NCBI RefSeq assembly: GCF_007859865.1
Contig: NZ_SJPI01000001.1
Span: forward strand, 3,481,241-3,545,240
Direction: 5' to 3'
DNA: 64,000 nucleotides
Origin: Rubripirellula amarantea
GTDB taxonomy: Bacteria > Planctomycetota > Planctomycetia > Pirellulales > Pirellulaceae
In this document: piece by piece, positions 32,854-56,670 of the stretch
How the letters are laid out: each line of letters starts with the position of its first letter
Position numbering within the stretch: position 1 is the stretch's first letter
Notes under the pieces: model-generated
Seen by the model: only the letters and a program-made list of their open reading frames with translations
What the model was told of the DNA's origin: nothing
The model's database searches: none
Made by a program: the position numbers and the translations under genes

Positions 32854-33092
32854 TTGATTTCTCGGGGGAAACGAGCAAGTTGATCATGGAGTGGTGGACG
32901 ATCGTAGCGACTATGGCACCAGCAGAGAGACCGGTCGTCACGGTTAGGATCACGAACTTCCTCCAATTTTGTTCCGCAAAATGCCCGCTTTGGGGGTGCG
33001 TTGGTTATCCTGGCACTGGCCGGTGGGGTGGGTGATTCCCCTGGCGATCGCCCATGTTCGACACATCAAAGTCACTCCAAGGGAACCACGTC

Positions 33093-36000
33093 ATGTTTCG
33101 ACGTCGCCAACCGCCCCGCCCCAACCCGTCTCGCCGCCGCTTGTCGCTGGAACCGCTAGAGCGAAGACGGATGCTAGCCGTTGATTTTGAGTTGCTTGGC
33201 GACATCAATGCGGTACTTAAGATGGAGAGTTCGAGCCCGCAGCATTTTACGGAAGTGGGATCGACACTCTATTTTACGGCCGAGACTTCTCGCTATGGGC
33301 GCGAGCTGTGGAAAACGGACGGGACCGCGTCGGGGACCATTTTGGTTCACGACATCAATGCTGGAATCTACAGTTCCGGTCCCTACAATCTTACTAACGT
33401 CGCTGGCACGCTGTACTTCAGAGCGTACGACGGAGTCAATGGAACGGAACTCTGGGCTAGCGATGGGACTGCGGCAGGCACCACGGTGGTCAAAGACATT
33501 CTTGGTGGAAGCGGTAGTTCGTTTCCGTCGAATCTGACGAACGTCGATGGCACTCTGTTCTTCACGGCGAATGACGGCACTAACGGTATCGAATTGTGGA
33601 CCAGCGATGGGACTGCGACAGGCACGACAATGCTCGACGACATTCGCGCCGGAATCGCTAGCGCTTCACCCGCCAGCCTGATCAATTTCGGTGGTACGTT
33701 GTTTTTCTCTGCAAACGACGGAGTCAACGGAATTGAACTATGGACTAGCGATGGAACCGCTGCTGGCACAAGCATCGTCAGCGACATTCGCCCAGGAATT
33801 TCTGGGGCTTATCCCACAAACCCAACTGAGTTCAACGGTTCGCTCTTCTTCGCTGCCAGTGACGGAGTCAACGGAAATGAACTATGGACAAGCGACGGAA
33901 CGGCATCGGGCACGACCTTGGTCAGTGACATTCGCTTGGGGATTGCTGGCGCCTACCCCTCGTATCTAACAAACGTCGGTGGCACGTTGTATTTCCGCGC
34001 CAATGACGGCACCACGGGAACTGAATTGTGGACGAGTGACGGGACTGCCACCGGCACGACGCTGGTGAGCAACATCAATAGCGGAAGTTCTAGCTCCGAC
34101 CCGAAGCAGTTGACCAACGTCGATGGCACGCTGTACTTTCGCGCCAATGATGGCAGCAATGGTCTTGAATTGTGGACCAGCGATGGCACCTCGGTTGGCA
34201 CGACTCTAGTCAGCGATATTCGGACAGGCGTCAACGGCTCTTCGCCCTCGTACCTTACAGATATCGGTGGCGTTCTGTACTTCAGAGCCTACGACGGAAT
34301 CAACGGAAACCAGCTGTGGACAAGTGACGGGACCGCCGCTGGCACAATCATGGTTAGCAATATCTCCAATGGAGTCACTGGCTCGTCGTCGTTGCGTTTA
34401 ACCGGCTTTGCTGGCGCAATTTACTTCAGTGCCAATGACGGTACCTATGGGGACGAACTGTGGACAACTGACGGGACCGCCGCTGGCACGGCGTTGGTCA
34501 AAGACATTCACGTTGAAAGTCTTGGTTCCAATCCCAACAAACTTACCAACGTCGGTGGCACGTTGCACTTTCTTGCCAATGATGGCGTCCATGGAAACGA
34601 ACTGTGGGCCAGCGATGGGACGGCAGGTGGCACTGGTTTGGTCAGCGACATTCTGGCCGGAAGTTCCAGTTCATCTCCCTCTAGTTTAAGCAACGTCGGC
34701 GGCAATCTATTTTTCGCTCCCAATGACGGCGTCCATGGAAACGAGCTGTGGACCAGCGATGGGACGGCAGTCGGCACATCTTTGGTCAGCGACATTTTCC
34801 CAGGTAGCTCCGGTTCAAATCCATCGAGATTTACCGACGCCGGTGGCACGGTTTACTTTAGCGCGAATAATGGCACCAACGGTACTGAATTGTGGACCAG
34901 CGACGGGACAGCGGCTGGAACGACCTTGGTCAGCGATATTCACCCTGGAAGCCTCGGATCAAATCCGCAATCTCTCATAGGCCTGGGTGGCACCCTATTC
35001 TTCGTAGCCAACGACGGCACCAATGGATTTGAACTATGGACCAGTGATGGGACCGCTGCGGGAACTTCTATGGTTGTCGATTTAAGAGCCGGAAGCAGCG
35101 GTTCAGGAGTGAGCAACCTAGTTGAAATGAATGGCTCACTTTTCTTCAGCGCCACCGATGGCGTGAGCGGAACTGAACTGTGGACAAGTGATGGCACCGC
35201 TGCGGGAACCTATCTAGTCAGCGATATCAATGCCGGCAATAACGGTTCGTCGCCATTCAATCTGACGAACGTCGATGGTGCCCTTTTCTTTACAGCATAC
35301 GATGGTGTTAACGGAGTTGAATTGTGGACCAGCGATGGGACTTCCGCTGGCACGACTTTGGTGAGCGACATTTTCGCTGGGCCGAGTAGTTCCGGCACCA
35401 GCAACCTGACCGAAGTCGATGGCACGCTTTTCTTCACCGCCACTGACGGGACTCACGGAACCGAGCTATGGACGAGCGATGGGACCGCTGCTGGCACAAC
35501 CCTAGTCAGCGACATTCGCGTTGGAAGTTCCAGCTCAACTCCTTCGGTTCTCAACAACGTCGGCGGAGTCTTGTATTTCAAAGCTTTGGATGACGAATTT
35601 GGCAGCGGCCTGTGGCGAGTGGACGAGAGCGATCAAACCGTTGAACGACTGGTTGACTCCAACAATGACTTCCCACAAATTTCGTCGATCCTAGGCATTG
35701 GCAATGAGCTGTTCGTCGTCGGAAGCAGCCCAGAATTTGGGACAGAGCTATACTTTCTTGCTGAATCGGATGACGACGATCAGATCGGCGAAGCCTCATC
35801 GTTGTCCATCGGAACCACCCCCGGCGAACTTGAAACGCTACTAGGTGGGGAGGCAGATGTCGACATATATGGCTTTTTCGCCGACGCGGACGATGTCTTT
35901 GTCATCGACATCGATAGCCCCGTTGGAAATCTCGATTCGTTGCTGAAAGTATTTAATGCTTCAGGAAGCGAATTGGCGTCGAGCGATAATGATGTGGGGC

Positions 36001-37865
36001 CAAGCCCAGAGTATTCCAGCAGCGAAGCTTACTTGAAGTTTACTGCTCCAGCGAGCGGTACGTTCTACGTCGCTGTCACGCGGTCTAGCAACTTGAGTTT
36101 CGATGCCAGTAGTGGCTCCGGTGACGAATTTCAAAGCGTGTCGACAAACGATGCTTACGACTTAATCTTTGAACAATGGTCGCCTTCGGCGGAGGATGAC
36201 TTCGTCGCGACCACCGAGAGCACTTCCTCTGTGATCTCTGTTCTTGGCAACGACACACCCACGGGTGAAGTCACGATTATTGAGCGCAATAGCGCAGCCA
36301 ATGGCTCCGTCACCAACAACGGCGATGGCACATTGACGTACACTCCCGATCTTGGGTTCACGGGCACGGACACGTTCGACTACACGATCGCGCTTCGGGA
36401 TGTGGAACTGGTCAATCCTGTTGCTGACAGCGGTGATCGGTTGGGTTACTCGGTCGACGTTGACGGCGACTTTGCGGTTGTCGGTGCTTACTTGGATGAC
36501 CCCGGCGGGTTGACCAACGCGGGGTCCGCGTTCATCTACGAACGAATTGGCGCGACTGCGTGGACAATGGTGGCTCAGCTCAATGGTGATCTCGACCCGA
36601 GTGATGCGCAGTCCAACTTCGGCTTCAGTGTTGCCATCGATGGCGACACTGTGGTGGTGGGTGCTCAGTACGACCGCGACCTTGGTTTTCAAGCGGGTGC
36701 GGCTTATGTCTTTGATCGAAACGAAGGTGGGCTCAATCAATGGGGCAGGGTGGCAAAGCTGTCAGGCAATGACACCGTCAAGCGAGACTTGTTTGGACGG
36801 TCCGTAGATATCTCGGGCGACACAGTGGTGGTCGGTGCAAGTGTTGCCGATCCGTTGGGCGCTTCCTCCGGTGCGGCTTACGTGTTTGATCGCAACTCTG
36901 GTGGCGCGGGCGCATGGGGGCAAACCAAGAAATTGCTCGGCAGTACGCAATCGGCGGGTGATCGCTTCGGTCAATCGGTTTCGATCGACGCGGATCTGAT
37001 CGCCGTAGGCGCTTTCCGGCACGATGGCGTGGGTAACGACAGCGGCGCTGTCTACGTTTACTCACGCGATCAGGGTGGTGTCGACAACTGGGGTGAAGTC
37101 AAAGCGATCGAGGCATCCGATGCCGCGGCGGCGGACCAGTTTGGTTACAGCGTTTCTCTCGATGGCACGTCGCTCGCGATCGGTTCACCACTGGACGATG
37201 AAGCGGGCGTGAACCAACTGGGCTCGGTTTATGTGTACTCGCAAGACGAAGGTGGCACTGGTAACTGGGGCCAAGTCACCAAGCTGACCGCCGACGATGT
37301 CGAAGCGGGTGACCGATTCGGAACCTCCGTCGCTCTCGCGGCCGATCGCATCGTCGCCGGATCACCCTGGGCCGACGACGGAGGCAACCGCTCCGGCCGC
37401 GCGTACGCATTCGAGAACATCGCTGGGACCTGGACTCAAACGAGAGTCCTGACCAACGACGAAGTCACCACCGCCGATCAGTACGGCATCGCAGTTGCCG
37501 TTGACGGCGACGTTGCCGTGATCGGTTCATGGCTGGACAATCGCCCGGATAACAACTCCGGAGGAGCGTATGCCTTCGATTTGCAGACCGACACCGCGAC
37601 GGTGTCCGTGACGGTTGGTCCAGCGAGTTCTGAAATAGCGTTGCGTTTTGACGTGCAAGAAGACAGCGACGACGCCGAAAATTCGCGAGATGTTCGCCCT
37701 GAGACGATCCAGCAAGCAAAGGCGTTTATTCTTGCCGACTCTTCAAAGAGGATGTCCGTTCGCGAAACGCTGTTCACGTCTGACTTCGATATGAGCGATG
37801 ACGAAACACTTGACGATTTGTTGCTGGAACTGGCGGTGGCAACCATCGATTCCCGACTCGCTTAA
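33093..37865 (+). CDS. Giant secreted ELWxxDGT-repeat protein with FG-GAP propeller (1)
   Basis: The start is the ATG at 33093 with AAGGGAA seven bases upstream (1590 residues). Order: a basic leader ending in LSLEPLERRRMLA, the planctomycete N-terminal motif of large exported proteins; 16 repeats of about 49 residues with the core ELWTSDGTAAGT (residues 70-800) ending in a degenerate GLWRVDES; a PPC-like domain (about 900-1010); an Ig/cadherin-like domain (about 1030-1105, ending TYTPDLGFTGTDTFDYTIA); and seven FG-GAP-like units (about 1110-1505, DRFGxSVxxDGDxxxVGA). The tail has RETLF, an acidic run and two helices. The ELW repeats probably form a beta-propeller or solenoid on the cell surface. 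It is the first of five related genes running in the same direction. Confidence 0.9.
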   Translation: MFRRRQPPRPNPSRRRLSLEPLERRRMLAVDFELLGDINAVLKMESSSPQHFTEVGSTLYFTAETSRYGRELWKTDGTASGTILVHDINAGIYSSGPYNLTNVAGTLYFRAYDGVNGTELWASDGTAAGTTVVKDILGGSGSSFPSNLTNVDGTLFFTANDGTNGIELWTSDGTATGTTMLDDIRAGIASASPASLINFGGTLFFSANDGVNGIELWTSDGTAAGTSIVSDIRPGISGAYPTNPTEFNGSLFFAASDGVNGNELWTSDGTASGTTLVSDIRLGIAGAYPSYLTNVGGTLYFRANDGTTGTELWTSDGTATGTTLVSNINSGSSSSDPKQLTNVDGTLYFRANDGSNGLELWTSDGTSVGTTLVSDIRTGVNGSSPSYLTDIGGVLYFRAYDGINGNQLWTSDGTAAGTIMVSNISNGVTGSSSLRLTGFAGAIYFSANDGTYGDELWTTDGTAAGTALVKDIHVESLGSNPNKLTNVGGTLHFLANDGVHGNELWASDGTAGGTGLVSDILAGSSSSSPSSLSNVGGNLFFAPNDGVHGNELWTSDGTAVGTSLVSDIFPGSSGSNPSRFTDAGGTVYFSANNGTNGTELWTSDGTAAGTTLVSDIHPGSLGSNPQSLIGLGGTLFFVANDGTNGFELWTSDGTAAGTSMVVDLRAGSSGSGVSNLVEMNGSLFFSATDGVSGTELWTSDGTAAGTYLVSDINAGNNGSSPFNLTNVDGALFFTAYDGVNGVELWTSDGTSAGTTLVSDIFAGPSSSGTSNLTEVDGTLFFTATDGTHGTELWTSDGTAAGTTLVSDIRVGSSSSTPSVLNNVGGVLYFKALDDEFGSGLWRVDESDQTVERLVDSNNDFPQISSILGIGNELFVVGSSPEFGTELYFLAESDDDDQIGEASSLSIGTTPGELETLLGGEADVDIYGFFADADDVFVIDIDSPVGNLDSLLKVFNASGSELASSDNDVGPSPEYSSSEAYLKFTAPASGTFYVAVTRSSNLSFDASSGSGDEFQSVSTNDAYDLIFEQWSPSAEDDFVATTESTSSVISVLGNDTPTGEVTIIERNSAANGSVTNNGDGTLTYTPDLGFTGTDTFDYTIALRDVELVNPVADSGDRLGYSVDVDGDFAVVGAYLDDPGGLTNAGSAFIYERIGATAWTMVAQLNGDLDPSDAQSNFGFSVAIDGDTVVVGAQYDRDLGFQAGAAYVFDRNEGGLNQWGRVAKLSGNDTVKRDLFGRSVDISGDTVVVGASVADPLGASSGAAYVFDRNSGGAGAWGQTKKLLGSTQSAGDRFGQSVSIDADLIAVGAFRHDGVGNDSGAVYVYSRDQGGVDNWGEVKAIEASDAAAADQFGYSVSLDGTSLAIGSPLDDEAGVNQLGSVYVYSQDEGGTGNWGQVTKLTADDVEAGDRFGTSVALAADRIVAGSPWADDGGNRSGRAYAFENIAGTWTQTRVLTNDEVTTADQYGIAVAVDGDVAVIGSWLDNRPDNNSGGAYAFDLQTDTATVSVTVGPASSEIALRFDVQEDSDDAENSRDVRPETIQQAKAFILADSSKRMSVRETLFTSDFDMSDDETLDDLLLELAVATIDSRLA
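33300..35520 (+). repeat. Coding tandem repeat array of ELWxxDGT units
   Basis: About 16 units of some 147 bases each, encoding ELW(T/K/A)SDGTAxGTxLVSDI and a variable part with NLTNVGGTLFF-like strands. The units are similar enough in DNA to be prone to recombination or assembly collapse. Confidence 0.9.
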
Positions 37866-38087
37866 AGCGGATCCACGCTCCTAGCTAAAGACAGAATGAA
37901 TGTTCAGGTGTGTTTCTCGTCACTCCGGTTCTTTTCAAGTCGTTACTACGACGTGATTCGACTGTGGCGGGTCTGAGATTCCTTAGATGCCATTGAGGTT
38001 TGGAATTGCAAACAGCGATCGTCACAGACATGGCCAACTCTTGATAAACTGACGGTTTCTAGCGTTTCTGTTATTGAAGAGAGATCC

Positions 38088-41000
38088 ATGCGTCGAAGAA
38101 AAAAGACTTCCCGTTTGCAACGCAAGGCACGCCGAAAGTCAGCGACCTTGGGACTTCATGGTATCGAGCCACTTGAGCCGCGCAATCTTCTCGCGGTCGA
38201 CTTTGAATTGCTTGGCGACCTGAATCCCACGCTAAGCGATCAAGGTTCCGATCCTCAATCGTTCGTGCAAGTCGGATCGCTCACATTCTTTTCTGCCAAC
38301 TCGGCAGCGACAGGTACCGAGTTGTGGCGTACTGATGGCACCACCGCCGGTACCAGCGTGATCGACATTCGAGAAGGCTTCGGCAGCTCGTTTCCTGATG
38401 AACTGATCAATGTCGGAGGCACACTGTTTTTTTCAGCGCAGGACGAAGGTGGCAATACGGAGCTTTGGAAGTCAGACGGAACCGTTTCGGGGACTGTTCA
38501 AGTGAAGAACATTTTCCCAGCTCCCAGCGTCTATGAACGTAATTCATCACCGAGTCATTTAACGAATGTCAACGGAACTTTGTTCTTTTCGGCGAATGAT
38601 GGAGTGAGCGGGTATGAGCTCTGGAAGAGCGACGGTACGGAGGCGGGAACGACGCGCGTCGCCGATATTGCGCCTGGCCTGCTGAGATCTAGTCCCGAGT
38701 CACTCGTCAACGTTGATGGCACCTTGTTCTTTACGGCCAACGATGGCACCAGCGGCCTAGAGCTCTGGAAAAGCGATGGTACCGAACTGGGAACGACTCG
38801 GGTTGACGACATCGAGGTGGGGACTTCGTCATCTTTCCCCAGGGAACTAACCAACGTTGACGGCACGCTTGTTTTTACCGCTTATCAGTCCACTCATGGC
38901 CGAGAGTTGTGGAAGAGCGACGGCACGACGGCCGGGACGGAACGGATCGCGGATATCGCACCGGGCAGCGGTGGTGCATTCCCGACTTCGTTAACGAATG
39001 TTGGAGGCACGGTCTACTTTCAAGCCAACGATTTCATCAACGGAGCTGAGCTGTGGAAGAGCGACGGTACCGCTGCGGGGACAGTACTGGTCAAAGACAT
39101 TCGTACCGGTACTAGCGGTTCCAATTTAAACTCAATCACCAATGTTGGTGGAACGGTGTTCTTTCAGGCAACGGATGGTGTCACCGGAGCCGAGCTGTGG
39201 AGCAGTGACGGAACGGATGCGGGAACGACGATTGTCAGCGACATATTCGCGGGAAGCTCTTCATCCTATGCGTATCGACTGACGAACGTAGGTGGAACTC
39301 TTTTCTTCGCCGCGCGCGATGGCGCCAATGGCACTGAGCTTTGGAAGAGCGATGGCACTTCGGCTGGCACCACCTTGGTCAATGACATCAACTCTGGTGC
39401 AAACGGATCAAACCCAAATCACATCACTGGAATCGGGACGACGCTCTACTTTTCTGCCGATAATGGCGGCAGTGGGGTGGAGCCCTGGACGAGCGATGGG
39501 ACGTCCGTGGGCACCTCCTTGCTGAAGGATATTCGCGTCGGCAGCGCGGGGTCTAATCCCTATGGGTTAACCGACGTCAGCGGCGAGTTGTTCTTTACGG
39601 CTAATGATGGAGCAGCGGGCAACGAGTTGTGGAAGACTGACGGAACCGCGGCGGGAACAAATCTCGTGCTGGATCTTCAGCCCGGTCCATATGGAGCGTT
39701 CCCTTACTACCTCACAAACGTCAGTGGCACACTGTTCTTTACGACAGGCAGTGGGCCCAATACCGGAGAAATTTGGTCGAGTGACGGGACGAGTGCGGGC
39801 ACTAGCCTCGTCGCAGACATCTACCCCGGTGGCTACACCGGCTCATATCCCTACTATCTGACGAACGTTAACGGAACGCTCTTCTTTACCGCCGATGACG
39901 GGGGATACGAAGGACGCGAGCTGTGGAAGACGGATGGCACAGGTGCTGGCACGCTGATGGTGGCCGACATCAACCAACAGTACTACGAGAGTTCCTATCC
40001 CTATGGGCTGACGAACGTTGGCGGGATTCTCTACTTTCAAGCGAACGACGGCGGTGCATACGAATACCAGCTCTTTCGCAGCGATGGTACAGCAGCGGGA
40101 ACATACGCGCTTGTTCCGTCTACGACCATGAGTGACCCTGCCAACTTCACTGACGTCAATGGAACCGTCTTTTTCTCGGCCACCGGCGCGGACGGTCGTG
40201 AGCTTTGGAAGACCGACGGGACCGCGGCCGGAACGGTTCTTGTCAAAGACATCTATTCGGGTGCAGCCAGCTCTTCGCCCCGTCAGTTGACCAATATTGA
40301 CGGAACACTGTTCTTTGCCGCCAACGATGGAACACACGGGCACGAGTTGTGGAAAAGCGATGGCACGGCAGCCGGAACGGTCTTGGTGGAAGACGTTCGT
40401 GTTGGAATCGAGGAGTCTCGCATTTTCCAAATTACCGATGTGGGTGGCACAGCGTTCTTCATGGCCGATGACGGCACGAACGGGATAGAGCTTTGGAAGA
40501 GTGATGGAACTTCTACCGGCACATCTCTGGTGTCCGACATTTACGCGGGCAGTAAGAGCGCGAGACCAAACAACTTTACCGTGCACGATGGAACACTGTA
40601 TTTCAGCGCTCATGATGGAACGCTTTCCAATGCGCTGTGGCGAATCAACTCGTCAACTCAGCAAGCTGAACGGTTATCAGATCCGGCGTCGAATCCACCT
40701 CAAGTGCGAGAGTTAGCATCCGCCGGTGGAGATCTCTTTGCCGTGGCAATTTCGGACGCTGTTAGTACGGAGTTGTATCGCATCAACGAGTCATTGCTTG
40801 ATGCGGTGGATGATTGGTTCGTTGGTCCCGACTCGGATATTAGTTTCAATGTCTTCACCAACGACACGCCGCCAACCGGGGTGATCATCACTGCGACGAC
40901 TGAGCCAAGTGATGGGACGCTTGTTGACAACGGGGACGGTTTCTTCACGTACACGCCGGATCCTGGTTTTTCCGGCACTGATACGTTTGACTACACAATC

Positions 41001-42485
41001 GCCTATGAACCCACTGAACTGATCAGTGGAACCGCATCAGGCGGTGACCGCTTTGGGTACTCCGTTGACGTTGACGGAGACTTTGCGGTCGTTGGATCGT
41101 TCCTGGATGATGCGGGCGGTATCACTAACTCGGGATCTGCGTTCGTCTACCAGCGACAAGGACCATCCGCTTGGACTCAGGTCGCACAACTCAATGGCGA
41201 TCTTGACGCTACTGATGCGCAAGGACAGTTCGGCTGGAGTGTTGCCATTGACGGAGACACGGTCGTTGTCAGTGCTCAAAAGGATCGTGACGCCGGGTTC
41301 CAAGCAGGGGCTGCTTACGTCTTTCAGCGTAATGAGGGAGGCGCCGATAACTGGGGGCGAGTCACAAAGATCGTTGGTAGCGACACGGTTGCGCGTGACC
41401 TGTTCGGAAGGTCGATTGATGTTTCTGGGGACACGGTTGTTGTTGGCGCGAGTGTTGCGGATCCTGTGGGAGCTTCCTCGGGCGCGGCGTATGTTTTTGA
41501 ACGCAACCAGGGCGGCGCTGGTAATTGGGGACAAGTCACGAAACTCACTGGTAGCGATCAGGCAGCCGGCGATCGCTTTGGGCAATCCGTAACGATCGAT
41601 GGCGACCTGATTGCCGTTGGTGCGTTCCGTCACGACGGCGCGGGAACCGATTCAGGTACTGCTTATGTTTTCGAAAGAAACCAGGGTGGGGCTAACACTT
41701 GGGGAGAAATCAAAACGATCGAGGCATCCGATGCGGCGGCAAGCGATCGCTTTGGATTCAGCCTCAGTATCGATGGCTCCACGCTTGCGGTGGGCTCTCC
41801 GCTTGATGACACCGGTGGCCTCAATCAGCTGGGATCGGTTTACGTTTATTCCCAAGACGAAGGAGGCACGAACAATTGGGGGCAAGTGACGAAGCTACTT
41901 GATTCAAACGGCGCCGCAGGGGATCGGCTGGGGCTTTCGGTAGCCGTGGAAGGCAATCGAATCGTGGCTGGATCACCGCAGGCCGACGGCGGTGGAAACT
42001 CGTCGGGTCGCGCCGTGCTGTTTGAGGATGTTTCCGGAACGTGGGCACAGTCACGCGTTTTGACGAACGAAGAGGTGACAACGGCAGACGAGTACGGGAT
42101 CTCGGTTGCGGTCAGTGGCAACACTGCGATTGTGGGTTCGTGGCTGGACAATCGCCCGGTCAACAATTCGGGCGGGGCGTATGCGTTTGATTTGCAGACT
42201 GATACGGCGACGGTGACCGTTAACGTCATCGCGGCGCCTTCTGAATCGCCTCTTGTTGAAAATCAATCTGAGATGATGGTGAGTGAGATGGTGAGTGTCT
42301 CGTACGAAACCGTCACTCCGTCGGTCTTGCATGAGAGTCCCGCTGGCAATTTCGCAGCACCAGGTGTTCAGACGTCGGTTCGCGATCAAGTGTTTATCGA
42401 AGTCGTTGATGGCGATGATGCTGATGACCTTGAAACTTCCATTGCCAATATCGCTGAGGCTCGATTGAGAGCGGAGTTGGTGTAG
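38088..42485 (+). CDS. Giant secreted ELWxxDGT-repeat protein with FG-GAP propeller (2)
   Basis: This 1465-residue paralog starts at an ATG with GAAGAGAG upstream. The leader is rich in Arg/Lys and ends GIEPLEPRNLLAVDFELL. Sixteen ELW-type repeats (residues about 78-815) mostly carry ELWKSDGTAAGT; a few are altered (EPWTSDGT, EIWSSDGT, QLFRSDGT). Unlike its neighbours it has no PPC-like domain: the repeats lead directly, via a linker, to the Ig/cadherin-like domain (about 905-975), then seven FG-GAP-like units (about 985-1380). The tail contains VRDQVF and acidic residues, like its relatives. It lies 222 bases after paralog 1 with no terminator seen between them, so a shared transcript is possible but not shown. 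Confidence 0.9.
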   Translation: MRRRKKTSRLQRKARRKSATLGLHGIEPLEPRNLLAVDFELLGDLNPTLSDQGSDPQSFVQVGSLTFFSANSAATGTELWRTDGTTAGTSVIDIREGFGSSFPDELINVGGTLFFSAQDEGGNTELWKSDGTVSGTVQVKNIFPAPSVYERNSSPSHLTNVNGTLFFSANDGVSGYELWKSDGTEAGTTRVADIAPGLLRSSPESLVNVDGTLFFTANDGTSGLELWKSDGTELGTTRVDDIEVGTSSSFPRELTNVDGTLVFTAYQSTHGRELWKSDGTTAGTERIADIAPGSGGAFPTSLTNVGGTVYFQANDFINGAELWKSDGTAAGTVLVKDIRTGTSGSNLNSITNVGGTVFFQATDGVTGAELWSSDGTDAGTTIVSDIFAGSSSSYAYRLTNVGGTLFFAARDGANGTELWKSDGTSAGTTLVNDINSGANGSNPNHITGIGTTLYFSADNGGSGVEPWTSDGTSVGTSLLKDIRVGSAGSNPYGLTDVSGELFFTANDGAAGNELWKTDGTAAGTNLVLDLQPGPYGAFPYYLTNVSGTLFFTTGSGPNTGEIWSSDGTSAGTSLVADIYPGGYTGSYPYYLTNVNGTLFFTADDGGYEGRELWKTDGTGAGTLMVADINQQYYESSYPYGLTNVGGILYFQANDGGAYEYQLFRSDGTAAGTYALVPSTTMSDPANFTDVNGTVFFSATGADGRELWKTDGTAAGTVLVKDIYSGAASSSPRQLTNIDGTLFFAANDGTHGHELWKSDGTAAGTVLVEDVRVGIEESRIFQITDVGGTAFFMADDGTNGIELWKSDGTSTGTSLVSDIYAGSKSARPNNFTVHDGTLYFSAHDGTLSNALWRINSSTQQAERLSDPASNPPQVRELASAGGDLFAVAISDAVSTELYRINESLLDAVDDWFVGPDSDISFNVFTNDTPPTGVIITATTEPSDGTLVDNGDGFFTYTPDPGFSGTDTFDYTIAYEPTELISGTASGGDRFGYSVDVDGDFAVVGSFLDDAGGITNSGSAFVYQRQGPSAWTQVAQLNGDLDATDAQGQFGWSVAIDGDTVVVSAQKDRDAGFQAGAAYVFQRNEGGADNWGRVTKIVGSDTVARDLFGRSIDVSGDTVVVGASVADPVGASSGAAYVFERNQGGAGNWGQVTKLTGSDQAAGDRFGQSVTIDGDLIAVGAFRHDGAGTDSGTAYVFERNQGGANTWGEIKTIEASDAAASDRFGFSLSIDGSTLAVGSPLDDTGGLNQLGSVYVYSQDEGGTNNWGQVTKLLDSNGAAGDRLGLSVAVEGNRIVAGSPQADGGGNSSGRAVLFEDVSGTWAQSRVLTNEEVTTADEYGISVAVSGNTAIVGSWLDNRPVNNSGGAYAFDLQTDTATVTVNVIAAPSESPLVENQSEMMVSEMVSVSYETVTPSVLHESPAGNFAAPGVQTSVRDQVFIEVVDGDDADDLETSIANIAEARLRAELV

Positions 42486-42614
42486 CGATTGCCAGAGTTT
42501 CCTTGCGACTGCTCGATGCCTGCACTAGGCTGGTCGGTGATTCGTGGTTGGACTTTGAAGGTTGGGCTGAGTGCCTCCGCCCGACACGAATGGTCCTGAG
42601 AACTGAGTTTTTGC

Positions 42615-48121: not shown

Positions 48122-51100
48122 ATGCCTCCACCGTTGAAAACACGTTCCACTAGGCGTATCCGAAGTAGTTCGCGAATTTCCAAACGGCGCTCGATGAAAC
48201 TTGAGTTGCTCGAACAACGCAATCTCCTTGCGTTTGACTTTGAGCTGCTTGCCGACATCAATGATTCCTTGGCTGGTTCCTCTCCTGGCGAGATCACTCA
48301 GGTTGGCGATGCGATCTTCTTTACAGCAACGACTGCGCAGAGTGGTCGCGAACTGTGGACAACCGATGGCACGATGGCTGGAACACGTCAGGTTTCCGAT
48401 ATTCGACCGGGAACACGTGGTGGTGATCCAGTCGAGCTTACAAACGTCGATGGGGTGCTTTATTTCACAGCCAACGACGGAATCAACGGGGATGAGATTT
48501 GGACCAGTGACGGTACTGAATCGGGAACACGTATGGTTCATGAAATCGCGCCCGGCGACAACTTCAGAAGACCGAGGTTTTTGACGAACCATGATGGAAC
48601 GCTGTATTTCTCAGCAACGGATGATGTTGCTGGGCATGAACTTTGGAAGACAGATGGCACGTCCGCTGGGACTACTCAAGTGCTAGATATCAATCCAGGT
48701 TCGGCAAACTCTTATCCGTTGTGGATGACTAGTATTGGCGGCGAACTGTTCTTTATCGCTGATGACGGAGTTCATGGGCAGGAGCTTTGGACATCCGACG
48801 GAACGGCCTCGGGGACGTTCTTGGTCCAAGACATCAATCCGGGCCTCTCAGATGCCCTCAGCGCCAGCTCGTATCCTGTGAGTTACTATTATCCACCATT
48901 GGTCGATGTTAATGGAACGCTTTTCTTTGCCGCTGATGATGGTGTGCACGGATACGAACTATGGTCGTCCGATGGCACTGTTGCCGGCACGGCCCTCGTG
49001 CAAGACATTCAATTAGGGTCGGGCAGTTCGCGACCAACTCAGTTAACCAATGCAGGAGGCTCATTGTTTTTTACTGCGGACGACGACGTTAATGGGCGGG
49101 AGCTTTGGACGAGCGATGGCACTAGTGCGGGAACAGCCCTCGTCAAGGACATTCGAACAGGTAGTCAGAATACGACTATTTTCGAGCTCGCAAGCATTGG
49201 TAGCACTGTTTATTTCACTGCCGGTGACGATTCAGGGCGGTACGAGCTTTGGAAAAGTGATGGGACGACCGCAGGCACAGCGATGCTGACCGATGACAGC
49301 ACGTCATCTTTTGGAACTGTCCCCCAAAGGCAAACCAATGTTAACGGACTGCTTTACTTCGTAACGTTTGAACAAGAACTTTGGACCAGTGATGGCACCG
49401 TTGCCGGTACGAGCCTTTTGAAGGAAATTGGTCCATCAGGCAACGGGTATGTCGAAGAGTTGGCAAATATTGGAGGGACTCTTTTCTTCGCTGCCGGTAG
49501 CATTCGGCAAGAGACGGAACTCTGGTCCAGCGATGGCACGGAAGCAGGGACAAATCAGGTAGCCGATATTCAGGTTGGCACCAATGGCTCGTACCCCAGT
49601 GATTTCACTGAGGTCTCCGGTTCGATTTACTTCGTTGCTAGGAGCGGGGACACGGGAGACGATTTGTGGGTCAGCGACGGAACGATCGCCGGTACACAAT
49701 CATTAGCTAGCACTGGTGTCTCACGAATTGAGAACATCACGAATGTCAACGGCACAGTTTTTTTCTCGGCGTCTGACAGTGTCAATGGAGAGGAGCTTTG
49801 GAAGAGCGATGGAACTGCCGCCGGAACGGTATTGGTGAAAGATATCTCGATCGGGTCTGGAAGGTCTGAACCCGAAGACTTCGTGAATGTTGCGGGAACT
49901 TTATTCTTTACAGCAGATGATGACGCTCACGGTCGCGAGCTTTGGAAAAGTGATGGAACCGAGGCCGGTACTGTCCTGGTACGCGACATTAGGCCGGGTT
50001 CCTTTTTAGACAGCTCCGAACCACGCGAGCTGACCGAATTCAATGGTGAACTGTACTTTCGAGCGAATGACGGAATTAGTGGTGCGGAGGTTTGGAAGAG
50101 CGATGGAACAGAGGCCGGTACAGTGCAAGTGTTTGACATAGAGCCAGGTAACTATGGATCTGGCCCTGATGATTTCGTCAACGTGGACGGCAAACTCTAC
50201 TTCAGCGCCAACTCTAGCGGACTAGGTGTCGGTGACGAGGTCTTTGCGATCGACGGAACGACCGGTGACCTACTGGTGTTGGATATTAGACCGGGCTCAT
50301 CTGGCTCTTTTCCAGGTGCGCTGACGGCGATCGAAGGTCTGCTGTTCTTTAATGCCAATGATGGTACGACTGGGAACGAGCTCTGGAGAATCGATGCGGC
50401 GACGGGCTCGGGTAGTCTCGTCGCGGACATCAATCCCGGTCCGGAGGACTCATATCCCCGCGATTTTACTGAGGTCAACGGAACGCTCTTTTTTGAAGCT
50501 AGCACAGACGCTGAGGGCCGTGAGCTTTGGTCAACCGACGGAACTTCCGCTGGCACGTCGTTGGTCGCTGACCTGAGACAAGGCCCAGATAGTTCCTTTC
50601 CCGGTGAATTGTCCAACGTGGGAGGAGCATTGTTCTTCAAAGCATTCAACGACGAGTTGGGAAACCAGTTTTGGAGAGTAGACGAGAGTGGATCAGCGCC
50701 GGAACTGGTGGTGAGTTCCAATTTCGACATTATTCAAGGCGACTTGCTCTTTGCTTTTGAGAACCGCGTTTTCGCTACGCTTAAGACCGAAGATCATGGA
50801 GTCGAGCTATTTATCGGAACAGATACCGATGAGGACGATCAGATTTCCGAGGCCATTACCCTCAGTCAAGGATCCACGCTCGGTACGATCAAAACGATAC
50901 TCGGAGGCGAAACGGACGTTGATCTATACCGATTCGAAGCCGACCAGGGCGAAGTGTTCGATATCGACGTGGACCGTAGCGGTGGAGAGCTTGACTCAAT
51001 CCTGAGCGTCTATGCGTCAGACGGAAATCTATTGGATATCAGCGACGACGACGTGGGACCGGCACCTGAGTTCAGTGAGCTGGAATCCTACTTGCGATTC

Positions 51101-51136
51101 ACCGCACCATCGACCGGAACATTTTCGTTGCGGTGA
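48122..51136 (+). CDS. ELWxxDGT-repeat protein (3), 5' part of a frameshifted gene
   Basis: This 1004-residue part holds the leader (MKLELLEQRNLLAFDFELL), about 16 ELW-type repeats (residues 73-810, the last ones degenerate: EVFAIDGT, ELWRIDAA, QFWRVDES) and most of a PPC-like domain. It stops in FTAPSTGTFSLR, where its paralogs continue with GTFYVAVTRSSN. Reading one base over gives FVAVTGFSNIDF, the expected continuation, so a T was lost from a T-run near 51122-51125 (TTTTT would restore the frame). The gene would then run to 52911, about 1596 residues, with the same domain order as paralog 1. Either it is a recent pseudogene or phase-variable gene, or this is a sequencing error. Confidence 0.85.
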   Translation: MPPPLKTRSTRRIRSSSRISKRRSMKLELLEQRNLLAFDFELLADINDSLAGSSPGEITQVGDAIFFTATTAQSGRELWTTDGTMAGTRQVSDIRPGTRGGDPVELTNVDGVLYFTANDGINGDEIWTSDGTESGTRMVHEIAPGDNFRRPRFLTNHDGTLYFSATDDVAGHELWKTDGTSAGTTQVLDINPGSANSYPLWMTSIGGELFFIADDGVHGQELWTSDGTASGTFLVQDINPGLSDALSASSYPVSYYYPPLVDVNGTLFFAADDGVHGYELWSSDGTVAGTALVQDIQLGSGSSRPTQLTNAGGSLFFTADDDVNGRELWTSDGTSAGTALVKDIRTGSQNTTIFELASIGSTVYFTAGDDSGRYELWKSDGTTAGTAMLTDDSTSSFGTVPQRQTNVNGLLYFVTFEQELWTSDGTVAGTSLLKEIGPSGNGYVEELANIGGTLFFAAGSIRQETELWSSDGTEAGTNQVADIQVGTNGSYPSDFTEVSGSIYFVARSGDTGDDLWVSDGTIAGTQSLASTGVSRIENITNVNGTVFFSASDSVNGEELWKSDGTAAGTVLVKDISIGSGRSEPEDFVNVAGTLFFTADDDAHGRELWKSDGTEAGTVLVRDIRPGSFLDSSEPRELTEFNGELYFRANDGISGAEVWKSDGTEAGTVQVFDIEPGNYGSGPDDFVNVDGKLYFSANSSGLGVGDEVFAIDGTTGDLLVLDIRPGSSGSFPGALTAIEGLLFFNANDGTTGNELWRIDAATGSGSLVADINPGPEDSYPRDFTEVNGTLFFEASTDAEGRELWSTDGTSAGTSLVADLRQGPDSSFPGELSNVGGALFFKAFNDELGNQFWRVDESGSAPELVVSSNFDIIQGDLLFAFENRVFATLKTEDHGVELFIGTDTDEDDQISEAITLSQGSTLGTIKTILGGETDVDLYRFEADQGEVFDIDVDRSGGELDSILSVYASDGNLLDISDDDVGPAPEFSELESYLRFTAPSTGTFSLR

Positions 51137-52911
51137 CAGGATTTAGTAACATTGATTTTGAGATCGCGGGAGGAACCGGTGATGACATTCGTGACGCACT
51201 GGAAAGCGACGACTATGAGTTGCTGTTCCACAAGCTTGGGCCAACCGCGGTCCCGGACAGCGTGGTAGCGATACAGGATACCGCTGTCTTTGTTCCGGTC
51301 TTGGACAATGACCTTCCATCAGGCGACGTCGAGGTTATTGGTTTCAGCGATCCAGCTAATGGAAACGCAACGGTCAATGCCAATGGGCAGATTGAATACA
51401 CGCCAACGAGTGGATTTCTTGGAACCGATGCATTTGATTACACGATCGCGTTGAAGTCGACCGAGCTTACCAATGCTGAGATCACCGGCGGGGACCGCTA
51501 TGGTTACTCGGTGGACGTTGATGGTGATCTTGCGGTCGTCGGTGCCTACTTGGATGACCCAAACGACGTCACCAATGCCGGATCGGTCTCGCTTTACCGC
51601 CGCGATGGCATCTCTTGGCAGTTTCTCACGCTTCTCACTGGCGACGCGATTCCGCAGAGTCAGTTTGGATGGAGTGTTGCGGTTTCCGGAGACACGGTTG
51701 TCGTGGGCGCGCAGCGAGACAGTGACAACGGGTTTCATTCGGGCGCCGCCTATGTCTTTCAAGACGTAGATGGTGAATGGACCCAAGTTCGCAAGCTCGC
51801 AGGTTCAGACACTGTCAATCGAGACTTGTTTGGTCGTTCGGTCGACATCGATCGTGACACCATTGTCGTTGGTGCCAGTACTGCTGACCCTTTGGGCGCA
51901 TCGTCTGGAGCAGCCAATGTATACAACCGCGATGAGGGCGGTCAGGATAATTGGGGGCAGATCAAGAAGTTGACCGGTAGCACTCAAGGGGCTGGGGATC
52001 GTTTTGGTCAGTCGGTCGCCATCGACAATGCAACCATTGTGGTTGGCGCGTTTCGCAATGATGACCAAGGCATCGACAGCGGTGCCGTTTACGTTTTCAA
52101 ACGAAATCGCTTTGGTGCCGAAAACTGGGGTGAGCTCAAAGTCATTACGGCATCCGATGCGTCTGCGGGTGACCGATTTGGGGCTAGCGTGGCTGTCGAT
52201 GGAACCACGGTCGTTGTTGGTTCACCACAGGATGATACTGGTGGGGTCAATCAGCTCGGATCCGTTTACGTCCTTTCGCAAAACGAAGGAGGTTCTAACA
52301 ACTGGGGGCAGGTTGCAAAGTTGCTTGCTACTGACGGAAACGCTGGTGATCGCCTCGGGCTTTCCGTTGCTTTCGACGGAAGTCGAATTGTCGCTGGCTC
52401 ACCTCTTGCCGATGGTGGTGGTGATGCTTCGGGACGAGGCTATCTGTTCGAATTGACGAACGGATCCTGGACGCAAACTCGTGTACTGGGTAGCAGTGAA
52501 GTCACCACCGCGGACCAGTACGGCATCGCAGTCGCGGTCGATGGCGATGTTGCTGTGATTGGATCATGGCTCGATAACCGCCCGTCAAATAATTCAGGTG
52601 GCGCCTACGCATTTGATTTGCAGACCGACACGGCAACGGTGACGGTGACGGTGACGGTCAATCCTGGAAGTTCCGAGTTGCCGCTGATCGAAGACTCTCC
52701 AGCGATGATGAACATCGCATCGGAGGCAGCGCTACCGAACGTCATGCACGAAAACCAAGACGCCGATCAGGCAGTCTGGCAAGCACGAGTTTGGGCACGT
52801 GATCGAGTGTTCGCACAGAGCATGGAAACGGACGACGAGAACGAAGACGAACGCTACCTCGACGACATCGCCGACGATCGCCTGGGTCACGCATTTTCAG
52901 CCAGCCTATAG
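51133..52911 (+). CDS. ELWxxDGT-repeat protein (3), 3' part of a frameshifted gene
   Basis: This is the remainder of the gene at 48122, in the +1 frame; a GTG at 51133 overlaps the stop region of the first part, so it could be read by reinitiation. It carries the end of the PPC-like domain, the Ig/cadherin-like domain (ending SGFLGTDAFDYTIA), seven FG-GAP-like units and the acidic tail with ARDRVF. Its 3' end (52666-52847) is almost identical in DNA to that of the PL8 gene, and a GTGACG microsatellite near 52634-52660 adds extra TV pairs before it. It has no leader of its own, so without the 5' part it would not be exported. Confidence 0.85.
   Translation: MTGFSNIDFEIAGGTGDDIRDALESDDYELLFHKLGPTAVPDSVVAIQDTAVFVPVLDNDLPSGDVEVIGFSDPANGNATVNANGQIEYTPTSGFLGTDAFDYTIALKSTELTNAEITGGDRYGYSVDVDGDLAVVGAYLDDPNDVTNAGSVSLYRRDGISWQFLTLLTGDAIPQSQFGWSVAVSGDTVVVGAQRDSDNGFHSGAAYVFQDVDGEWTQVRKLAGSDTVNRDLFGRSVDIDRDTIVVGASTADPLGASSGAANVYNRDEGGQDNWGQIKKLTGSTQGAGDRFGQSVAIDNATIVVGAFRNDDQGIDSGAVYVFKRNRFGAENWGELKVITASDASAGDRFGASVAVDGTTVVVGSPQDDTGGVNQLGSVYVLSQNEGGSNNWGQVAKLLATDGNAGDRLGLSVAFDGSRIVAGSPLADGGGDASGRGYLFELTNGSWTQTRVLGSSEVTTADQYGIAVAVDGDVAVIGSWLDNRPSNNSGGAYAFDLQTDTATVTVTVTVNPGSSELPLIEDSPAMMNIASEAALPNVMHENQDADQAVWQARVWARDRVFAQSMETDDENEDERYLDDIADDRLGHAFSASL
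52666..52847 (+). repeat. 182-bp near-identical 3' block, copy in ELW paralog 3
   Basis: This is the partner of 47379-47560, with two substitutions seen. It encodes the conserved tail ending in RVFAQSMETDDENE. Confidence 0.9.
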
Positions 52912-53052
52912 GTCTCTTCCGATACGTCTTTTAGGGCGTTGTTGCATGATGGGGCAGTCGCGGGCGATGAAGGGGATCACCAACTTGATGTGCGGGGGGT
53001 TTAGCGATAGTATCGTGGGAGGTTTGGTTTTTGTGACTCACCACTTTCAAGA

Positions 53053-56000
53053 ATGGGCGACTTCAACATGTCGAAAGCAAGCCATCGCCGCGGTCCGGAG
53101 GGCAAGCGAGTTCAGCGATCTCAAAAACGATGTGCGCTTCGCATTGAACTGCTTGAGCAGAGGCAGTTGCTCGCGGTCGACTTTGAGATGGTTGATATCC
53201 GGACCGGCAGTGGTAGTTCTTCCCCATTGAATTTCACGACTGCGTCTAACACGGTGTTCTTTAGTGCCGATGATGGTATCCGAGGCGACGAACTGTGGGC
53301 CACCGACGGGACCACCGCTGGCACGCGGTTGGTGCGCAACATCAGTGCGGGTGCGAAAAGCTCTGTTCCGAACCAACTCACCAACGTGGGCGGCACGATT
53401 TTTTTTGATGCGTTGGGTGAATATGAGCTTTGGAAGAGCGACGGCACATCTGCGGGCACGAGTTACGTGGACGGTACCTGGCGCGAAGGTAATTGCCTGT
53501 ACGCGGTTTACTGCGATCTTTATAGCGCATCGCCCAACGGATTCACCAATTCGGGCGGCACGCTTTTCTTCAACATGAACCCCGACTTTGACGGGTACAG
53601 TTTGTACAAGAGTGAAGCTCCCCACACGGACATCGAATTTGTAAAACAGATCAATAGCTTCGATGGTGCCTATGGGGCCAAGCCATTCGGCTTTACTGAT
53701 GTCGATGGAACACTTTTTTTCAGTGCTCCCAATGACACGTTCGGCACCGAATTGTGGAAGAGTGATGGCACGGAGGCGGGCACATTCATGCTCGCCGATT
53801 TGGATTCGGGCAGTGGCAGCGGATTTCCAACGCGTCTGACCAACGTTGATGGCACGCTGTATTTCCGAGGCAGCAACGGCGTTCAAGGGCAAGAACTATG
53901 GAAGAGCGATGGAACTGCCAGTGGAACGATTCTGATCCGCAACATTCGTCCTGGTCCGGGAAGTTCGAATCCCGACCGGTTGACCAATGTTGACGGAACG
54001 TTGTACTTCACCGCAAACGATGCGACTCATGGCAATGAGTTGTGGAAGTCCGATGGAACCAACGTTGGAACCACTCTGGTCAGCGACATCATGCCCGGTT
54101 CCGCTGATGCTGATCCCGCCAGTTTGACTGAGGTGGATGGCAACGTTTTCTTCTCCGCGCTTGATGGAACCGGAGGCAGGAAAGTCTTTTTCAGTGATGG
54201 CACTGCTTTAGGAACAAACGCTCTAAGTGTTCCCAGCGGGATGGCGGCGCCCATCGATCCAGTGGATCTAACCAACGTAGACGGAGTCTTGTACTTTCGT
54301 GCGCAGAGCATCGCTGCCGGCCCGGTAGAATTGTGGCGAGTCGATGCGAGCAGTATGACGATCGAAAGGCTGCAGTTAGGGATGGCAAACTCGCCAGATG
54401 TCGGAAGCATACATCCGTTCGCGCAGTCGCTGCTTTTCGCCGGTGAGACCAGCACTCTGGGTGAAGAATTGTATTTCGCTAGCGAGTCCGATGATGACGA
54501 CGAGATTGACGAAGCAATACCTTTGGCGCCGGGCACCGTCACGGGTGAACTGGAAACGCTACTCGGTGGAGATACCGATGTTGATATGTACGCGTTTTCT
54601 GCTGCCGCCGGCCAAACACTTGGGATTGACGTTGATCACCTATCCGGAAATCTTGATTCATTGCTTCGCGTCTTCGACGAAGCCGGAAATCAGCTAGCGG
54701 TTAGCGACAACGACGTGGGAAGTGGTGCAGAATTCAGTAGCCTCGAAGCCTACGTGAGTTTCTTTGCGCCTTCGTCCGGTACGTTCTATGCCGCCGTGAC
54801 CCGGTCGGGCAACTCTAAGTTTGACGCTGGCGATGGAACGAAAGACAGCACAACGTCTCCAGCACTGGACGATGCTTACGAGTTAATCCTTCAATCGGAA
54901 GGATTCGTTTCATTCTTGGCAGTGGATGATGCGGCGACCACTACCGAGAACCAGCCGATCACAATTTCAGTACTCGACAATGATCTGCCTGATGGCGGTG
55001 TGGTCTTGGCCGGACACATGGACGCTACCAACGGAGTCGTCACCGATAATGGCAACGGGACGTTAACCTACACGCCCGACACTGGATTCACCGTTACCGA
55101 TTCGTTTGACTATTCCGTTGCACTGGCTTCGTTGGAACTAACCAGCCCGTCAACGACCGGTGGCGATCGGCTGGGTTATTCCATTGACATTGATGGCGAC
55201 TATGCGGTCGTGGGTGCGTATCTGGACGACCCCAACGGCATCACCAACGCCGGTTCTGCGGTACTGTTTGAGAAGACAACGACGGGCGACTGGCAGCAAC
55301 TGGCGTTACTTACCGGTGACCCACAAGCCCAAACTCATTTTGGCTGGAGTGTCGCGATCGACGGCAACACCGCCGTGGTGGGGGCACACCGTGACAAGGA
55401 CAATGGCTTCTTCGCTGGTGCAGCCTACGTGTTTGACTTTGATGCCGGAGGCGTGACCTCGACGACCAAGTTGATCGGTAGCGATACGATTTCGCGAGAT
55501 TTGTTCGGACGCTCGGTCGACGTTTCGGGTGATACGGTGGTGGTAGGCGCAAGCACGGCTGATCCTGTTGGCGATTTCTCCGGCGCAGTCTACGTGTTCA
55601 ATCGAGATGAAGGTGGCATCGGCCATTGGGGACAGGTCAAGAAGCTGACTGGCAGCACACAAGGGGCCGGTGATCGGTTTGGGCATTCCGTTTCGATCGA
55701 CAACAGCACTCTCGCCGTCGGGGCGTTTCGGCACGATGGCATCGGTGCTGATAGCGGCTCGGTTTACATCTTCGAACGCAATCGATTTGGCGCGGACAAC
55801 TGGGGCGAACTCAAATCCATCGAGGCTCCCGATGCTGCAGCGGGTGATCGATTCGGCTTCAGCGTCAGCGTTCAGGGCAGCACGGTAGCCGTGGGCGCCC
55901 CACACGACGACGAAGGTGGCCTGAATCAACTCGGATCGGTTTATGTACTTTCGCAGAACGAAGGCGGCAGCAACAACTGGGGCCAGGTCGCCAAATTGCT

Positions 56001-56670
56001 TGCCAACGATGGAGCGGCCGGCGATCGGTTGGGATTTTCCGTCGCCTTTGACGCAAATCACATCGTTACTGGTTCACCGCAGGCCGATGCTGGGGGCAGC
56101 AGTTCTGGCCGCGCGTATTTGTTTGAAAACGTCGGCGGCACTTGGACGCAGACCCGCGTGCTGGTCAACGACGAAGTCACCGCTGCCGACCAGTACGGGA
56201 TCTCAGTCGGGCTCAGCAGCGACGTCGCAGTGATCGGATCGTGGCTCGACAATCGTCCGTCCAACAACTCCGGCGGCGCCTACGTTTATGATTTGCGAGT
56301 CGATACCGCGACGGTGACTGTCACGGTAGGTTCCGGGGCGGCAGAACAGTCGGCAAATCAAGCCAAGAAACGACAAACGCTAAGCATCAGGCTACCCGAA
56401 TCAGCGTATTTTGACGCTGCTAAAACGGAAGGCATTCAAGAGCGGCAAGCGAAGTCGCTTTCCGCGATGTCGATGAACTGGGAACCGTTGAAGATAGCGG
56501 CACCGCGATCGAGTTTCTCGATTCACGATCAAGTGTTCGCCTCGGAGATCGATGAAGCCGTTGAATCTGACAGTATCGAACGTGATCTCGAATGCTACCT
56601 CGATGATCTTGTGACAACTGGTTTCGCGCAGGGTTTGCTGAGTTACCGTTTGGCGAGGCAAAGAACTTAG
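53053..56670 (+). CDS. Giant secreted ELWxxDGT-repeat protein with FG-GAP propeller (4)
   Basis: At 1205 residues this is the shortest paralog. The leader (SKASHRRGPEGKRVQRSQK...LRIELLEQRQLLAVDFEM) is followed by a reduced array of about eight repeats (residues 75-430). Several are degenerate or interrupted by an insert with NCLYAVYCDLYS, one of the few Cys-containing parts of these proteins. A PPC-like domain (about 475-600), the Ig/cadherin-like domain (about 620-690), seven FG-GAP-like units (about 700-1090) and an acidic tail (HDQVFASEIDE) complete it. The ATG at 53053 gives the longest form; the ATG at 53068 is nearly as likely. It is the last of the paralog row; 250 bases separate it from the SGNH-like gene. 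Confidence 0.88.
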   Translation: MGDFNMSKASHRRGPEGKRVQRSQKRCALRIELLEQRQLLAVDFEMVDIRTGSGSSSPLNFTTASNTVFFSADDGIRGDELWATDGTTAGTRLVRNISAGAKSSVPNQLTNVGGTIFFDALGEYELWKSDGTSAGTSYVDGTWREGNCLYAVYCDLYSASPNGFTNSGGTLFFNMNPDFDGYSLYKSEAPHTDIEFVKQINSFDGAYGAKPFGFTDVDGTLFFSAPNDTFGTELWKSDGTEAGTFMLADLDSGSGSGFPTRLTNVDGTLYFRGSNGVQGQELWKSDGTASGTILIRNIRPGPGSSNPDRLTNVDGTLYFTANDATHGNELWKSDGTNVGTTLVSDIMPGSADADPASLTEVDGNVFFSALDGTGGRKVFFSDGTALGTNALSVPSGMAAPIDPVDLTNVDGVLYFRAQSIAAGPVELWRVDASSMTIERLQLGMANSPDVGSIHPFAQSLLFAGETSTLGEELYFASESDDDDEIDEAIPLAPGTVTGELETLLGGDTDVDMYAFSAAAGQTLGIDVDHLSGNLDSLLRVFDEAGNQLAVSDNDVGSGAEFSSLEAYVSFFAPSSGTFYAAVTRSGNSKFDAGDGTKDSTTSPALDDAYELILQSEGFVSFLAVDDAATTTENQPITISVLDNDLPDGGVVLAGHMDATNGVVTDNGNGTLTYTPDTGFTVTDSFDYSVALASLELTSPSTTGGDRLGYSIDIDGDYAVVGAYLDDPNGITNAGSAVLFEKTTTGDWQQLALLTGDPQAQTHFGWSVAIDGNTAVVGAHRDKDNGFFAGAAYVFDFDAGGVTSTTKLIGSDTISRDLFGRSVDVSGDTVVVGASTADPVGDFSGAVYVFNRDEGGIGHWGQVKKLTGSTQGAGDRFGHSVSIDNSTLAVGAFRHDGIGADSGSVYIFERNRFGADNWGELKSIEAPDAAAGDRFGFSVSVQGSTVAVGAPHDDEGGLNQLGSVYVLSQNEGGSNNWGQVAKLLANDGAAGDRLGFSVAFDANHIVTGSPQADAGGSSSGRAYLFENVGGTWTQTRVLVNDEVTAADQYGISVGLSSDVAVIGSWLDNRPSNNSGGAYVYDLRVDTATVTVTVGSGAAEQSANQAKKRQTLSIRLPESAYFDAAKTEGIQERQAKSLSAMSMNWEPLKIAAPRSSFSIHDQVFASEIDEAVESDSIERDLECYLDDLVTTGFAQGLLSYRLARQRT

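Follow-up and report, generated by a model that had tools for sequence, protein, structure and literature searches.

A shared C-terminal propeller base beneath varied fronts in predicted secreted proteins of Rubripirellula amarantea

We analysed a 64,000-nucleotide window of the Rubripirellula amarantea genome (contig NZ_SJPI01000001.1, positions 3,481,241 to 3,545,240), in which six open reading frames (ORFs) at 33054-56670, all in one direction on the forward strand, make up five predicted secreted proteins. The first-pass annotation of this DNA had described four ELWxxDGT-repeat (ELW) proteins and one PL8 lyase with a shared C-terminal module, and Pfam and NCBIfam agree with that description in all five. 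The module, here termed the base, comprises an immunoglobulin-like (Ig) domain and a seven-bladed propeller and is followed by an acidic tail; the part ahead of it is termed the front. Across the genome, the base occurs on fronts of several unrelated kinds, and a modular exchange of fronts on the shared base is well supported, because the history of the base cuts across front types and because a GH10 front exists both with and without it.

Protein 1 (33054..37865, +; an alternative ATG at 33093 was the start given by the first-pass annotation) carries a signal, 16 ELWxxDGT units, a PPC domain, a base made of a split Ig and a seven-bladed propeller, and an acidic tail. Its base consists of a first Ig part (Big_9, PF17963 in Pfam, 36189..36392, +), seven FG-GAP_2 blades (Pfam, 36393..37583, +) and a probable returning last Ig strand (37584..37616, +), the latter placed by the structural model of protein 3 and the joined-halves test described below. 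Protein 2 (38088..42485, +) has 17 ELWxxDGT units, a base (first Ig part 40800-41003, propeller 41004-42194, last strand 42195-42227, all +) and a tail (42228-42485). In protein 3 (42615..47627, +), a PL8 lyase front precedes the base and tail, with the first Ig part at 45942..46145 (+) and the propeller at 46146..47339 (+), both taken from an AlphaFold2 model with a predicted local distance difference test score (pLDDT) above 90 in most propeller blocks, and the probable last strand at 47340..47372 (+), from the model and the joined-halves test. Protein 4 is split: a first ORF (48122..51136, +) encodes a signal, 16 ELWxxDGT units and a PPC domain interrupted by a frame change, and a second (51133..52911, +) encodes the remaining PPC, the first Ig part (51247-51450), the propeller (51451-52620), the last strand (52621-52653) and the tail (52654-52911). 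Protein 5 (53053..56670, +) has an ELWxxDGT front with six units over threshold, a PPC domain, the base (first Ig part 54919-55122, propeller 55123-56295, last strand 56296-56328) and a tail (56329-56670).

All five proteins contain seven FG-GAP_2 stretches (E 3.9e-89 to 4.1e-95) preceded by Big_9 in Pfam, and proteins 1, 4 and 5 have the PPC domain ahead of the Ig. The tails are acidic, as the first-pass annotation had noted, with 9-12 acidic and 3-5 basic residues among the last 45. The row of five proteins proposed there is also correct in number, except that the fourth is not one open frame: a frame change at a TTTT run within its PPC domain (51100-51136) had been overlooked and leaves two overlapping ORFs, and it may reflect a pseudogene, a sequencing error or phase variation.

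The ELWxxDGT fronts belong to a known family (TIGR04534 in NCBIfam), with 16, 17, 16 and 6 matches over threshold in proteins 1, 2, 4 and 5, at scores of 884.9-1037.9 bits for proteins 1, 2 and 4 and 315.5 bits for protein 5 (curated cut-off 65). The earlier counts had been 16, 16, about 16 and about 8. The ELW front of protein 5 (53170-54882) was modelled as a beta-propeller, albeit weakly (pLDDT 73), and the closest solved folds were sortilin-family Vps10p domains, with root-mean-square deviations of 8-12 for the best. The front of protein 3 exceeded the Pfam cut-offs for Lyase_8 (177.4 bits, 4.7e-52) and Lyase_8_C (62.1 bits, 6.9e-17), while Lyase_8_N, the alpha-helical N-terminal domain, at 19.6 bits fell beneath its cut-off of 24. 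Its nearest solved structure is chondroitinase AC (1cb8, E 3e-45), and the His and Tyr that are catalytic in chondroitinase AC, His225 and Tyr234, both aligned to identical residues in protein 3.

The base had been described as an Ig/cadherin-like domain with seven FG-GAP units behind it. Both elements are present, but their arrangement most likely is different, with the propeller inserted within the Ig, at its last (F-G) loop, rather than behind it, since the joined halves of the Ig complete the Big_9 match and strands of the model flank the propeller. The Big_9 match of the part before the propeller ends at position 74-75 of 89 in all five window proteins. When the segment following the propeller was joined on, the match reached 87-89 of 89 in each of the five pairs given (of eight made), compared to 75-78 when that segment was shuffled, once for each pair; the gain from true joining was 2.0 to 5.6 bits. 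In the AlphaFold2 model of the protein 3 base, built from 30 sequences (pLDDT 86.9, predicted template modelling score 0.82), Ig strands occupy residues 13-78, the propeller 81-474 and an 11-residue strand 477-487, such that 11-residue strands at 68-78 and 477-487 flank the propeller. The tail was modelled as mostly disordered with two helices.

A fold search returned integrin alpha heads as the best Protein Data Bank matches (probability 1.00); for 4wjk, the template modelling score was 0.65 by target length and 0.53 by query length at 17% identity, and a sequence profile matched integrin alpha-M at 4.1e-12. The base thus shares with integrin alpha a propeller of seven FG-GAP-type units, of which bacterial examples exist (PMC3192720). 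It differs in that its units are FG-GAP_2 and not FG-GAP, in that the propeller probably is inserted in an Ig, and in that a pattern search for a DxDxDG-like calcium loop found none in 17 of the 18 propellers of the genome and one in the gene c2_270. Mean pairwise identity among the 18 bases was 0.70-0.75 for strands, 0.68 for ab loops, 0.66 for bc loops, 0.63 for da loops, 0.50 for cd loops, 0.49 for the Ig and 0.21 for the tail. The bc and da loops presumably lie on one propeller face, as in integrin structures. In the blade-7 loop, W-x-DNRP-x-NN, seven of ten positions are invariant across the 18 bases, a level of conservation that would suit one common partner.

These 18 copies were found both with Pfam, where 126 of the 128 FG-GAP_2 matches in the genome fall into 18 groups of seven (the other two are weak and lie elsewhere in an ORF of 14,314 amino acids (aa)), and with a base model made from the window copies, which matched 18 ORFs and was C-terminal in 18/18. 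Pairwise identity among the copies ranges from 51 to 78%. Nine of the fronts are ELWxxDGT repeats and nine are not, and eight of the latter nine could be classified, into several unrelated kinds: PL8; PA14-CBM-GH10; FTP-M36-MAM-GEVED; M10 matrixin with PPC; LTD; cadherin-like (one each); RTX, laminin G, pentaxin and PKD domains in a protein of 11,073 aa; and RTX, LRR, DUF5122, laminin G and PKD domains in the protein of 14,314 aa. The ninth is a truncated front without a Pfam match. The window proteins, of 1205-1670 aa, hardly merit the earlier label "giant" next to ORFs of 4465, 11,073 and 14,314 aa that also end in the base. These three ORFs are consecutive on one strand (C2:1373979-1464088), and the first has 37 or 38 ELW units depending on the pattern, units outside the window having been counted by pattern only.

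A plain explanation for the window array would be duplication of ELW proteins plus one accidental fusion to PL8, with no modular system. That ELW repeats are a known family, account for half of the fronts and form four of the five tandem genes in the window speaks for it, whereas the nine other fronts, the tree of the bases and the presence of the base or propeller on other proteins in another genus (see below) speak against it. A single clade for the nine ELW bases was rejected by the approximately unbiased (AU) test (p 5.9e-90, log-likelihood loss 172.7), and the ELW label clustered on the tree no better than when shuffled (5 changes compared to a mean of 6.3, with values as low in 128 of 500 shuffles). 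We therefore give this explanation almost no credence; ELW-only duplication is ruled out by the varied fronts together with the AU test on the base tree.

In the same tree, which has good support at 7 of 15 inner branches, a clade with support 98/97 unites the bases of the GH10, 11,073-aa, truncated, 37-unit ELW and LTD fronts. The GH10 front has homologues of nearly full front length in 3 of 21 congeners, at 54% (over 1171 positions), 43% and 26% identity. Comparison of whole proteins by BLAST, minus the last 12 residues for the third ORF, found no base in these three congeneric ORFs; the homology stops at residues 1205, 1193 and 1216, and the base begins at 1207. The C-termini of the congeneric proteins appear EF-hand-like by eye, but a dockerin there was not confirmed, as Pfam gave nothing at E 0.01 for the two given. 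Collectively, these data uphold the earlier proposal of different fronts mounted on a constant base, given a base that is C-terminal in every copy, half of the fronts non-ELW, the rejected ELW clade and a GH10 front that also occurs base-free.

We also noted stretches of unusually high DNA identity at the 3´ ends of base genes. Between proteins 3 and 4, identity is 59% in the base until the last blade begins, and from there into the tail it is 90% (361 positions); this patch in protein 3 (47217..47571, +) corresponds to 52498-52858 in protein 4, and identity reaches 96-99% in two 90-base tail windows. Between the genes c2_470 and c2_476, identity is 62% and then climbs to 93.5% in a patch of 858 positions, which begins three codons ahead of the propeller end, passes the stop and extends to where the next gene encodes its signal. 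An 855-base block (C2:475005-475859) recurs at 482779-483624 with 93.5% identity, and it consists of a gene tail, a spacer and a signal start resembling that of the next gene, with the front missing after the copy at C2:475005-475859. From sequence comparison, we infer that the 3´ patches result from recent gene conversion or recombination.

The N-termini of the base genes were compared with PF07595, a planctomycete extracellular signal of the RRLxxExLExRxLLA type. Matches exceed the family cut-off in 6 of the 18 base genes, two of which encode window proteins (1 and 3), and in none of 14 control genomes, and at E up to 5 they occur in 17 of 18, a limit at which 8 of the 14 control genomes also gave matches. 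The PF07595 family, which six base genes match over the cut-off and 11 others more weakly, has the N-terminal signal as its sole defining feature. Long proteins carrying signals of this type were already known, and in a planctomycete proteome study (PMC8567305), 20 of 52 proteins of this type were detected, 8 of them solely in the fraction soluble in sodium dodecyl sulphate (SDS).

Genome-wide, there are 72 PF07595 sites at E up to 5, of which 17 are in base genes; 40 of the other 55 were examined at the C-terminus, those omitted being mostly short frames. None of the 40 has the base, the 18 copies being the full yield of the genome search, and four match the base model weakly (22-59 bits). 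A dockerin-like repeat was found in 16 of the 40 by a strict pattern and in about 28 by reading of an all-against-all list, and Dockerin_1 was confirmed by Pfam in five of five chosen from the 16 with the pattern. With the base and Dockerin_1 both present, at least two kinds of module are in use close to the C-terminus in this genome. Like the base, dockerin type I of cellulosomal and other secreted enzymes is a constant near-C-terminal module on unrelated fronts, but the fold is unrelated to the base, which is about eight times larger, and Pfam gave no Dockerin_1 (PF00404) match in the six window ORFs. The resemblance would therefore be one of place and use alone. Secreted proteins of modular build that have a C-terminal module in common are already known, and the propeller base is a variant of these. 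The known ELWxxDGT family (TIGR04534) supplies nine of the 18 fronts, and the base is independent of these fronts. A search of the open literature, judged mostly at the level of listings, found no description of a shared propeller base.

Secreted proteins with and without the base have acidic tails in which a weak motif near VD-x-V-[FL] occurs, and several of these tails end in LF; the acidic tail was thus rejected as a base-only feature. For training of the motif, 16 of the 18 base tails were used, two near-copies being excluded (likelihood 86.0, compared to 69-77 for five shuffled sets). Best scores in the 40 other tails averaged 3.07, versus 0.16 for shuffled tails (largest shuffled mean 1.56), and 15 tails scored at least 4 bits compared to 5.0 expected (maximum 11 in 500 shuffles); the counts obtained at 8 bits (4) and at 9 bits (4) were equalled by shuffles. 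For one congener (G003), the mean was 4.26 versus 0.90 (largest shuffled mean 2.74) with 7 of 20 tails at 4 bits versus 3.2 (most 8), and for another (G012), 2.44 versus 0.60 (largest shuffled mean 3.02) with 4 of 20 versus 2.9 (most 7). The statistics are mixed; the motif possibly is a general address of planctomycete secreted proteins.

In type IX secretion, Ig-like C-terminal domains act as a comparable address. The base and tail might likewise form an export or sorting module, a C-terminal address for a secretion machine without being a final anchor, in keeping with a position that is C-terminal in 18/18, with cargos that are unrelated and with the enrichment of the weak tail motif in other secreted tails (15 of 40). 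We consider this unlikely: the motif is also on proteins without the propeller base, making the tail the better candidate for an address, the propeller, at about 400 residues, is bulky for such a role, and the Ig and propeller can be N-terminal, as documented next.

We searched for the base in relatives, the order and family searches being samples in which at most seven candidates were scored per genome. The full base was found in one of 22 genomes of the genus, R. amarantea itself, with a partial propeller match in one congener (G009), and in one of 60 relatives. Among 196 sampled genomes of the order, 12 passed 1e-45, and no single match outside R. amarantea spanned the Ig, the propeller and the last strand. 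Among 199 sampled genomes of the family, two passed 1e-60, R. amarantea and a member of another genus (G249), with four base or propeller matches. In G249, one match, with Ig, propeller and last strand all present, is on an NHL-like front (read by eye); one is on an M10-like protease (beneath the Pfam cut-off) and has the propeller without an Ig match; one is on a contig-truncated protein with an additional propeller; and the fourth is N-terminal, with Ig and propeller ahead of Calx-beta and sulfatase domains. The base is thus found with other fronts in a further planctomycete genome, as the first-pass annotation had anticipated, and it is not limited to ELW proteins elsewhere, while the PL8 fusion is unique within the genomes examined.

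Through a pattern-led scan of named genomes, we obtained 107 relatives and kept 80, with best-segment identities of 28-50%. Some BLAST ranges in these 80 extend to the Ig or tail (L062, 10-478; L032, 20-482; L050, 76-534), but in a profile check of all 80, none of 226 rows went beyond model position 478 and no Ig was found immediately before a propeller. As for the fronts, PL8 was found in none of 21 congeners, distant PL8 ORFs (27-37% identity) occur in 3 of 59 relatives, without the base in the parts examined, and M36 was found in none of 39 relatives. The start of the 14,314-aa front had one partial match (41% identity) in one of 21 congeners. Protein 3 matched 26 plasmid records, all at less than 60% identity and none covering more than 80%; the best, from Sulfurimonas, has propellers without the Ig of the base.

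Given the position, fold and signal of the base and the published fractionation, it is plausible that the base anchors the fronts on the cell surface. The explanation we favour, and rate as fairly probable, is that the base genes encode a protein family, predicted to be secreted to the surface or matrix, with three exchangeable parts, in which the base would dock the fronts to a common partner. The first part would join a planctomycete export signal to a functional front (ELW propeller, PL8, GH10, proteases or lectin-rich giants); the second would be the base, constant among the copies, with its integrin-alpha-like seven-bladed FG-GAP_2 propeller set into the F-G loop of an Ig; and the third would be an acidic C-terminal tail of low conservation. 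The propeller, especially its blade-7 loop, would dock all fronts to one partner, on the cell surface or in the matrix, and would thereby serve in a similar way to the Dockerin_1 modules found at the same place in other large secreted proteins of this genome.

Alternatively, the propeller could be a substrate-targeting lectin that binds polysaccharide and sends the fronts to food particles rather than to the cell. Several fronts attack polymers (PL8, GH10, M36 and M10), and the wider propeller supercluster includes lectins (PMC8023676). However, Pfam finds no catalytic domain in the ELW repeats that make up half of the fronts, and the long loops diverge little among the 18 bases even though the substrates of the enzymes differ; we regard this alternative as improbable.

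Several observations weigh against docking of exchangeable fronts. The base tree has weak support at 8 of its 15 inner branches; the GH10 gene and its homologues in two congeners have no common neighbour in flanks of 16-18 kb, about 2 kb beside the R. amarantea gene being unseen in this comparison; and the full base is confined to a single genome of the 22 in the genus. Three of the 18 base genes are broken or truncated, namely protein 4 (frame change), c2_365 (stop shortly after the signal) and c2_270 (without the N-terminus). Because G249 has an N-terminal Ig and propeller and a propeller without an Ig match, neither C-terminal placement nor the Ig frame is universal. The Cadherin_5 family of Pfam failed to tell joined from shuffled Ig halves in two of five pairs. 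Conservation of the bc and da loops lies beneath that of the strands, and the da class is inflated by the FG motif lying within da in several blades.

On the docking explanation, the 18 copies on enzymes, proteases and giant lectin-like proteins would provide one handle on many of the long secreted proteins of planctomycetes, which encode many very long ones of unknown use. The genome appears to have retooled its surface, with a base that was not found in 21 congeners yet is carried here by 18 fronts; at least one of these fronts also occurs, base-free, in congeners. More tentatively, the base might represent a second, non-dockerin planctomycete docking system, in which the Ig-framed propeller plugs into one surface receptor and tandem arrays swap fronts. 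The swap could proceed by recombination between flanking stretches of constant DNA (the previous tail, spacer and next signal on one side, the base on the other), and the 855-base block downstream of the c2_470 propeller could be a relic of such a front exchange.

The window also contains other large ORFs. A 1273-aa ORF on the reverse strand (11856-15677, -) had no Pfam match at E 0.001. A TPR protein with FG-GAP_3 and UnbV_ASPIC domains lies at 23453-26581, its FG-GAP family being different from that of the base, and a further large ORF with DUF11 and SdrD_B domains (59876-64000) runs off the end of the window.

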